Below the pieces are notes generated by a model, which did no database searches, was not told the origin of the DNA, and was given only the letters and a program-made list of their open reading frames with translations. From an uncultured Ruminococcus sp. (GTDB lineage Bacteria; Bacillota; Clostridia; Oscillospirales; Acutalibacteraceae), in the NCBI GenBank assembly GCA_902778175.1, contig CACYWT010000025.1, positions 1 to 64,000 of the forward strand: DNA of 64,000 nucleotides, written 5' to 3'. Positions within the stretch are counted from its first letter, which is position 1; each line of letters opens with the position of its first letter. Below are positions 5,735-15,057 of the stretch, piece after piece. Made by a program: the position numbers and the translations under genes.

Positions 5735-5905
5735 ATTAAAAGCTTTGCTTTCAACAAGCAAAGGCAAGCCGTAGGCTTGCTGTCGTTCAGTGGGAGATTT
5801 TTACTCCCACTGAACGGATATATGGCACCCGCCTGGACACCTCTGCGAAGCAGAAGCACCGACCGAGCCGGCAGGCGAGACTCGGGGGACATACTTTGCG
5901 GTTAT
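5735..5905 (-). repeat. Dispersed structured repeat, copy 1 (full)
   Basis: A roughly 170-bp copy, oriented opposite to copies at 11989-12088 and 48097-48267. Read on the minus strand it begins ATAACCGCAAAGTATGTCCCCC and ends near AAGCTTTTAAT. It holds a perfect 12-bp stem GTTCAGTGGGAG/CTCCCACTGAAC (5785-5796 with 5804-5815) and a GCAAGCC/GGCTTGC hairpin. There is no coding frame of note. It sits in the divergent gap between purL and the aroF leader. Confidence 0.85.
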
Positions 5906-5972: not shown

Positions 5973-6001
5973 TTGACAAAGCAGTTCTTTTATGATAGTA
6001 T
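5973..6001 (+). promoter_or_regulatory. Promoter of the aroF leader transcript
   Basis: TTGACA (5973-5978) and TAGTAT (5996-6001) have a 17-base spacer. The predicted start near 6008 gives a leader of about 260 bases before aroF. Confidence 0.75.
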
Positions 6002-6041
6002 CTTTTCATGATTTTTGAAATCAGATGAAAGGACTGCCGTT

Positions 6042-6167
6042 ATGACAAGGAATTACGCACGATTTAGCGAATATGCCTTTACAGCTGTATGCAAGTTTTT
6101 TTGCATGGGGCATAATTCCGTGCGTTTTCGTGACCGACAGTCTATGTATATGCTGACAGCATCATAG
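6042..6167 (+). CDS. Candidate aromatic-rich leader peptide of aroF
   Basis: A 41-codon ORF with a good ribosome site (AAAGGA, about 9 bases before ATG). It begins MTRNYARFSEYAF and contains eight Phe/Tyr codons (five Phe, three Tyr). Two adjacent Phe codons lie in the loop of a small hairpin, ATGCAA/TTGCAT. It is followed by a strong terminator and then by the first gene of aromatic amino acid synthesis. This arrangement is that of classical ribosome-mediated attenuation, where slow translation of Phe/Tyr codons would prevent the terminator forming. The peptide itself is inferred to be regulatory only. The alternative is a chance ORF in a leader RNA controlled in another way. Confidence 0.6.
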   Translation: MTRNYARFSEYAFTAVCKFFCMGHNSVRFRDRQSMYMLTAS

Positions 6168-6208
6168 AACAGAAGCATTATATTTTTATGCTTTTAATTT
6201 GCCGGATT

Positions 6209-6237
6209 GACGGGATCGTACTGATCCCGTCTTTTTT
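6209..6237 (+). terminator. Attenuator terminator upstream of aroF
   Basis: A perfect 9-bp stem GACGGGATC/GATCCCGTC with a 5-base loop is followed by six T. It lies between the leader ORF stop (6167) and the aroF start (6272), so full-length transcription must read through it. Confidence 0.85.
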
Positions 6238-6271
6238 ATTTTTATTTTATATTTTTCAGGAGGAACAAAAA

Positions 6272-11989: not shown

Positions 11990-12088
11990 TAACCGCAAAG
12001 TATGTCCCCCGCCTCTAAGGCGGCGGGTGCCATATATCCGTTCAGTGGGAGTAAAAATCTCCCACTGAACGACAGCAAGCCTACGGCT
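11989..12088 (+). repeat. Dispersed structured repeat, copy 2 (shortened)
   Basis: Starts at the last base of the glgD stop codon with ATAACCGCAAAGTATGTCCCCC. It keeps the perfect 12-bp stem GTTCAGTGGGAG/CTCCCACTGAAC (12040-12051 with 12059-12070) and ends within AAGCCTACGGCT. Compared with copy 1 it lacks a central segment and the right end. It is transcribed within the glgD-glgA intergenic region. Confidence 0.85.
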
Positions 12089-14750: not shown

Positions 14751-15057
14751 GCAAGACTGCAACAGATATGCGATGAAGCTGGAGGTTGCGGCAGGTATTG
14801 CCGGTTTTTCCGCAGAGTATGTCCGATTTTAAACCGGGCGAAACGAATATTAAGTCACGTCATGACAGATCTTCCCTATAAGGCTACAGGTGTGTACAAT
14901 AGGGGCGGGCTGTTGTGCGGCTTGAATGGTTTTGTTTTTTCAGACCTCACCCGGATATACAATTATATATTGTTATCCGGTTTTTAAATGGAAACAGGCG
15001 AAACACCCGGTGGGGTGTGAGGAAATGAAAACGCCCGCCAACTCAAATTTTTTAAGG
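14751..15057 (+). ncRNA. S10-operon leader RNA (candidate autoregulatory leader)
   Basis: About 300 bases of structured, non-coding transcript precede rpsJ. It includes GATGAAGCTGGAGGTTGCGG near 14773, AACCGGGCGAAAC near 14833, a terminator-like hairpin at 14951-14985 and an ACACCC/GGGTGT hairpin near 15001-15021. The GCTGGAGGTTGC block is reminiscent of ribosomal-protein leader RNAs upstream of rpsJ in other Bacillota, from memory only. The length and the internal terminator fit control by a ribosomal protein. Confidence 0.55.
14951..14985 (+). terminator. Internal terminator-like hairpin in the S10 leader
   Basis: CCGGATA/TATCCGG arms extended by ACAAT/ATTGT are followed by five T. It lies about 200 bases after the predicted transcription start and 84 bases before rpsJ, as expected of an attenuator. 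Confidence 0.65.

Follow-up and report, generated by a model that had tools for sequence, protein, structure and literature searches.

A probable ribosome-mediated attenuator ahead of aroF in an uncultured Ruminococcus, and Phe/Tyr-rich aroF leaders in other Clostridia

Organization of the aroF leader

The DNA analysed here (the window) is a stretch of 64,000 nucleotides from contig CACYWT010000025.1 of an uncultured Ruminococcus sp., and contains near its start a gene for DAHP synthase (aroF) that is separated from its promoter by a short open reading frame and an intrinsic terminator. An earlier note on this DNA had described a promoter, a Shine-Dalgarno (SD) sequence and a 41-codon ORF with eight Phe or Tyr codons, followed by a perfect terminator with six T residues and then by the DAHP synthase gene; the sequence contains every one of these parts as described, and Pfam and NCBIfam matches bear out the identity of the gene. 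The features of the locus, with the evidence for each, are as follows.

5973-6001, forward strand: sigma-70-type promoter, TTGACA-17-TAGTAT with extended TG (consensus scan, 10/12 matches)
5973-5978, forward strand: -35 hexamer TTGACA
5996-6001, forward strand: -10 hexamer TAGTAT, after a 17-nt spacer and with TG ahead of it
6028-6033, forward strand: SD sequence AAAGGA of the leader ORF (from sequence; an SD also precedes the leader ORF in relatives)
6031-6045, forward strand: 5' arm, GGACTG-C-GTTATGA, of the outer stem P0; the arm takes in the start codon and pairs with 6128-6143 (MFE fold; coevolution of the corresponding region)
6042-6167, forward strand: leader ORF, ATG at 6042 to TAG, 41 codons, MTRNYARFSEYAFTAVCKFFCMGHNSVRFRDRQSMYMLTAS, with 3 Tyr and 5 Phe
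6055-6061, forward strand: segment 1, ACGCACG (codons Tyr-Ala-Arg), the 5' arm of P1, pairing with 6119-6125 (helix conserved and coevolving)
6062-6083, forward strand: first Phe/Tyr codon cluster (Phe8, Tyr11, Phe13), where stalling masks segment 1 in ribosome-masking folds and codon exchanges keep Phe/Tyr
6088-6107, forward strand: P2 hairpin, TATGCAAG (6088-6095) with TTTGCATG (6100-6107), enclosing the Phe19-Phe20 codons (99% of cells paired across relatives)
6115-6121, forward strand: ATTCCGT, an alternative antiterminator register overlapping segment 2
6119-6131, forward strand: segment 2, in which CGTGCGT pairs with segment 1, and GTGCG (6120-6124) and TTTCGT (6126-6131) would pair with segment 3 as the antiterminator (register predicted)
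6209-6231, forward strand: terminator, GACGGGATC-GTACT-GATCCCGTC, 9 perfect pairs, then T6 at 6232-6237
6209-6222, forward strand: segment 3, the 5' arm and loop of the terminator (GACGGGATCGTACT)
6223-6237, forward strand: segment 4, the 3' arm of the terminator (GATCCCGTC) with T6
6259-6265, forward strand: ribosome site of aroF, GGAGGAA
6272-7300, forward strand: aroF, coding for a DAHP synthase (P0001, 342 aa) that carries a ferredoxin-like regulatory domain, by matches in Pfam, NCBIfam and the PDB

The SD sequence AAAGGA is separated from the leader ATG by 8 nt. The product of aroF matches the Pfam families DAHP_synth_1 (1e-79) and DAHP_snth_FXD (6e-17) and the NCBIfam entry PRK08673, and has relatives in the PDB (4grs, and the DAHP synthases 1rzm and 3pg9). 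The predicted fold energy of the leader region is better than that of all 200 of 200 dinucleotide shuffles (z -4.0). The window contains six equally Phe/Tyr-rich, SD-led small ORFs, two of which start with ATG; a promoter, a terminator and a biosynthesis gene were assigned for the aroF leader, the one ORF of these whose surroundings were studied.

Other elements were observed in the window. An S10-Clostridia ribosomal protein leader (RF03136, 43 bits) lies at 14765-14841 on the forward strand, and a dispersed repeat of about 67 bp, AGCCGTAGGCTTGCTGTCGTTCAGTGGGAGATTTTTACTCCCACTGAACGGATATATGGCACCCGC, is found at approximately 5767-5833 (forward strand) and 12022-12088 (reverse strand). The repeat contains a perfect 13-bp inverted repeat, and beyond it, past a variable stretch, comes GGGGGACATACTTTGCGGTTAT; its 25-bp palindrome has 54 copies in the genome, with a spacer that is identical in all of them even though the search pattern left most of the spacer free.

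Conservation within the genus

The leaders of relatives were located by anchoring on the aroF protein, since DNA searches of those genomes gave mostly short, AT-rich chance matches. Matches to aroF were found in 55 of 64 genomes of the same genus, which include rumen MAGs named uncultured Ruminococcus sp. (Anaeromassilibacillus, a named member of the wider group, belongs to the Acutalibacteraceae, class Clostridia), and 50 upstream regions were read. A search for a conserved leader ORF, which the earlier note had proposed, found one with the core ARFxEYF at 42 of these 50 loci (for example, MAKTVYARFNEYFYAYSCEFFAWVISSCVPKAVQSV, MKTLDARFFEYFYSFSCFFFAWKNHSSC... and VKTLSARFFNSFRSWFFTWASHLC...), in MAG sequences that may contain errors and with ORF starts set by rule; a stricter automatic criterion was satisfied at 35 of 49 loci, as compared to 1.65 in shuffles. 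No leader ORF was found at L035 (where the terminator is kept), L037, L038, L052 and L058, and candidates at L051 and L080 were weak or divergent, while one further locus (L069) is cut off by the end of its contig. At L061 (genome G033) the leader RNA is conserved and the reading frame is apparently broken by a one-base change, which may represent either real decay or an assembly error.

A covariance model of the leader (R1) matched 47 of the 64 genomes, once each at confident scores, with the match at the aroF position in every genome whose aroF had been located; an extra match in G020 (E 0.08) was at the level of chance.

Paired segments and their coevolution

The alignment of these leaders shows three clear helices: (i) P1, in which the Ala-Arg codons pair with a downstream stretch (GCACGA/TCGTGC); (ii) P2, which forms around the second Phe cluster (CATGC/GCATG), and whose outermost pair is of five types (UA, GC, AU, GU and CG) and is paired in 40 of 40 sequences; and (iii) the terminator stem, which is 99% paired, with both sides changed at 7 of its 9 pairs. 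Across all three, 96.7% of cells are paired and both sides have changed in 11 of 22 pairs, a result equalled by 0 of 500 shuffles, and pairing drops to 30-46% when the partner is slid by one to three columns.

When applied to the whole alignment, RNAalifold recovered P2 and the terminator only, since the position of segment 2 differs from clade to clade. The test for the antiterminator accordingly compared the mean duplex energies of cognate segment pairs with those of partners swapped among 42 species. The cognate energies were lower for 1:2 (-10.5 versus -9.5 swapped, sd 0.24), for 2:3, the antiterminator (-14.4 versus -12.7, sd 0.30), and for 3:4, the terminator (-16.7 versus -13.3, sd 0.34), with 0 of 5000 permutations as good in each case and with kinship uncorrected apart from the negative controls. 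Those control pairings (1:3, upstream:3, ORF loop:3 and spacer:3) showed no effect in the same 42 species, and this null behaviour also serves as a control for relatedness. A pairing of the upstream region (SD and start codon) with segment 2, also included among the controls, gave a positive result (-20.3 versus -16.2), and is read as the outer stem P0, corresponding in the window to 6031-6045 with 6128-6143.

The 2:3 comparison, together with its negative controls, indicates that an antiterminator which excludes the terminator has been kept by compensatory change. In many species the terminator loop (CCGCAG, CCGCAC or CCGCCG) matches segment 2 (CTGCG, GTGCG or CGGCGG), and the antiterminator therefore takes in the loop as well as the stem. 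In the window, the homologous structure would be GTGCG 6120-6124 with CGTAC 6217-6221 and TTTCGT 6126-6131 with ACGGGA 6210-6215; the alternative register is ATTCCGT 6115-6121 with ACGGGAT 6210-6216.

These results bear on several structural claims of the earlier note. The hairpin ATGCAA/TTGCAT around a Phe-Phe codon pair is indeed present at 6088-6107, as P2. Both of the paired elements that it had placed at the two ends of the ORF are also present, and one of them, CGCACG 6056-6061 with CGTGCG 6119-6124, is a conserved helix; the other, GGAATTA 6049-6055 with TAATTCC 6113-6119, was checked against the alignment as a candidate conserved switch and is not kept in relatives. The decisive alternative is not between those two pairs, as had been suggested, but instead involves segment 2 with the 5' arm and loop of the terminator, as indicated by the swap test and the masked folds described below. 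Folding and covariation across relatives, which the earlier note had recommended, revealed coevolution of helices 1:2, 2:3 and 3:4, and the pattern that it had named as contrary to its reading (a structure kept while the leader ORF is not) was the opposite of what was found, with both being conserved.

Codon use and the predicted effect of ribosome position

The frequency of Phe or Tyr at core codons 2, 5, 6 and 7, directly 3' of segment 1, is 1.00, 0.85, 0.88 and 0.66, and a second peak occurs within P2 at core codon 13 (0.71). The codons that form P1 are frozen (GCA in 32 of 41 sequences, CGA in 38 and TTT in 40), and core codons 5-7 exchange TAC with TAT, TTT with TTC, and Phe with Tyr, with the aromatic residue kept. 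It would seem that selection maintains aromatic residues at codons whose bases are free of constraint from P1; because the codons vary and yet the aromatic residue is kept outside of P1, the pattern points to the decoding of Phe and Tyr, rather than the peptide sequence, as the likely signal. A change in the length of P2 shifts the downstream frame in some clades (L074 as compared to L043), with the leader retained.

The effect of ribosome position was modelled by masking the ribosome footprint and folding the RNA as far as the end of segment 3, which is a crude equilibrium calculation. In the window, segment 3 paired with the segment 2 zone at a mean of 0.23 when no ribosome was present, and at 0.73-0.78 when the A site was placed on any one of codons 2-15 (a range that covers Tyr5, Phe8, Tyr11 and Phe13). 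The value was about 0.2-0.3 with the ribosome at Phe19 or Phe20, and 0.23 at the stop codon; this modelled profile is that of a classical attenuator. Across 41 species the profile was the same but flatter (approximately 0.5 at the first Phe/Tyr cluster, 0.33 for free RNA, and 0.10-0.20 past segment 2), antiterminator pairing over all codons was 0.41 for Phe/Tyr versus 0.35 for others, and the effect was weak in some species, such as L034 and L068. Stalling in silico thus masks segment 1 and favours the antiterminator, clearly in the window and moderately on average.

Distribution across the family, order and class

Loci beyond the genus were judged by a strict criterion (an SD, 12-60 codons, at least 6 Phe/Tyr and at least 17%), or by a near-identical one for the rest of the class; these thresholds were set after examples from the genus had been seen, and were applied unchanged to the shuffles and to other pairs of amino acids. 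The other genera of the family have recognisable relatives of the leader, such as MNAAICTTRFTSFGYPRYFMAWDFSAC..., and 34 of their 87 loci satisfied the strict criterion. In the other families of the order, Phe/Tyr leaders were found in 16 of 17 families and at 59 of 76 loci (for example, MKNLMFAAFEYFYFYFYFYFTSK... and MFTANKKGYYYYGGRYYYAVFSSC...), whereas dinucleotide shuffles gave 1.35 and the reverse strand gave 0, and the Phe/Tyr pair outdid all other amino acid pairs that were tried. The corresponding numbers for the rest of the class were 33 of 60 loci and 25 of 38 families, with 2.65 in shuffles and 2 on the reverse strand. A leader of this kind, at first regarded as unexpected in a single Ruminococcus-like organism, is instead common across the order and the class Clostridia.

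In the order and class sets, a terminator-like site lies behind 84 of 92 leaders, and a ribosome on Phe/Tyr codons leaves segment 3 more paired with upstream sequence than does a ribosome at the stop in 68 of 84 (Wilcoxon P 4e-10). The leaders of these other families have just the Phe/Tyr-rich ORF and the terminator in common. It is reasonably likely that the first aromatic gene is controlled throughout the class Clostridia mainly by Phe/Tyr ribosome-mediated attenuation, which may be the ancestral state, that leader peptides and RNA structures have turned over many times with the principle kept, and that these leaders form a large, overlooked set of attenuators in the supposed home lineage of the T-box.

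Several further observations were made in the course of this survey. A second, unrelated aroF leader peptide family, with the consensus NNFSFTFSFTVFTSGRVNLLC and an almost invariant C-terminal Gly-Arg-Val-Asn/Asp-Leu-Leu-Cys, occurs in other rumen Ruminococcus (L141, L144, L151, L164, L167, L169, L170 and L171). Many aroF genes in the other genera of the family (L115, L117-L119, L121-L135 and similar loci) are without a Phe/Tyr leader, and 20 such leader-less loci, checked for known riboswitches, gave no Rfam match. With the same test, no Phe/Tyr leader was detected ahead of pheA in the genome that contains the window, where pheA lies in line with another aromatic gene. A T-box occupies the aroF position in two other Clostridia (L266, 175-427, reverse strand; L352, 103-392, forward strand), which is an exchange of the sensing system at the same gene.

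Proposed mechanism and alternative explanations

A conserved, translatable and SD-led ORF lies between the promoter and the gene, it is enriched in Phe/Tyr codons (8 of 41), and a terminator lies between it and aroF. Together with the coevolving segments, these features make it very probable (approximately 0.9) that the leader is a transcription attenuator worked by ribosome stalling, and the Phe/Tyr reading of the earlier note is supported by the conservation of ORF, codons and structures alike. With an ample supply of charged Phe-tRNA and Tyr-tRNA, the leading ribosome would reach the stop codon and disturb or cover segment 2, such that the 3:4 terminator forms and transcription ends before aroF. 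A shortage of amino acid on either tRNA would instead stall the ribosome at codons 5-13, where it would cover segment 1 (GCACG) and leave segment 2 free to pair with segment 3; the terminator would then not form, and aroF would be transcribed. If the leader were not translated at all, 1:2 would form, as would the outer stem P0 at the start codon, and termination would be the default. DAHP synthase makes the common precursor of both of the amino acids that would be sensed, and the Thermotoga DAHP synthase of the same type is under feedback control by Tyr and Phe.

Searches of Rfam at gathering and relaxed thresholds, including Phe_leader and other leader families, found nothing at the leader locus except weak hits attributable to chance. 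The T-box model (RF00230) likewise gave no match at the aroF leader, and gave eight matches elsewhere in the genome, five of them over the cut-off; for seven of the eight the genes, as read from translations, are cysE, tyrS, leuA, ilvB, a trpB-like gene, trpE and thrS. These matches bear on the explanation that the leader RNA is itself a tRNA- or metabolite-binding element (a T-box or riboswitch) and the ORF incidental, which is very unlikely: the structure is strong and conserved, and T-boxes do occur at tyrS, trpE, leuA and ilvB of this genome and at aroF in the sampled relatives L266 and L352, but the leader is without an Rfam match, a reading frame that is itself conserved, SD-led and Phe/Tyr-rich is interwoven with its conserved structure, and the leaders of other families share only such an ORF and a terminator.

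It is still less probable that the nascent peptide is the sensor, as an arrest peptide that binds Phe or Tyr in the manner of TnaC. While the core ARFxEYF (and TRFTSFGYPRYFMAW in other genera) is conserved beyond plain runs of Phe and Tyr, the conservation of Ala-Arg-Phe is accounted for by base pairing (the frozen GCA CGA TTT), Phe and Tyr swap elsewhere in the peptide, the peptide varies toward its C terminus, where in some clades the reading frame is shifted with respect to the RNA (L074 versus L043), and families with unrelated peptides have Phe/Tyr richness alone in common. Least probable of all is that the ORF is translated to allow reinitiation, or to make a functional small protein, with a constitutive terminator; leader ORFs are frequent ahead of operons (PMC4833913) and trans-acting leader peptides exist in other bacteria (PMC7298713), but a strong terminator stands within the roughly 100 nt that separate the stop codon from aroF, and the coevolution of segments 2 and 3 would be left unexplained.

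Significance and comparison with known systems

Accounts of how Bacillota control their amino acid genes usually centre on T-boxes and proteins. The genome described here has T-boxes for tyrS, trpE, leuA and ilvB and yet a leader peptide for aroF; with T-boxes at tyrS and trpE, the two systems therefore divide the aromatic genes between them. The aroF leaders in about 40 sampled families of Clostridia represent a series of naturally occurring attenuators, all at a single gene, suited to the study of how such switches evolve, and annotators gain a set of small ORFs that are currently missed. Close coupling of transcription and translation in Gram-positive bacteria is debated, and a leader of this type implies such coupling in these organisms.

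No description of aroF attenuation in Clostridia was found in the accessible papers searched; the lineage and the target appear to be undescribed in those papers, and no claim to a first description is made. T-box leaders (RF00230) resemble the aroF leader in that amino acid genes are controlled through tRNA charging and a terminator, and differ from it in binding tRNA directly, without translation. Among Bacillota, leader peptide attenuation is exemplified by hisZ/hisS* in bacilli, with His leader peptides, for which the authors stated that they knew of no earlier demonstration outside Proteobacteria and Actinobacteria (PMC2965389), and by the Leu-rich ilv leader of Staphylococcus aureus (PMC5794164); these two concern another amino acid, another gene and the class Bacilli.

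The nearest published case is the uORFC-13-1 motif, found in the aroF leader of Acholeplasma and proposed by its authors to act by attenuation, which is described as a uORF with one or more Phe codons directly ahead of a terminator and aroF; unlike the leaders reported here, it is described from Acholeplasma and environmental sequence only (24 representatives, at least one Phe codon) and is not reported in Clostridia (PMC8632094).

The closest parallel in mechanism is provided by the trp- and phe-type attenuators of Proteobacteria (trpL, pheL and the pheST leader), which likewise combine a short ORF rich in codons for the end product with alternative 1:2, 2:3 and 3:4 helices and an intrinsic terminator before the first gene. 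The aroF leader differs from them in having no match to an Rfam leader family, in mixing Phe and Tyr codons, in its target (aroF) and its lineage (Clostridia), and in an antiterminator that in many species is joined by the terminator loop; the mechanism itself is attenuation of the Yanofsky type, which is already known.
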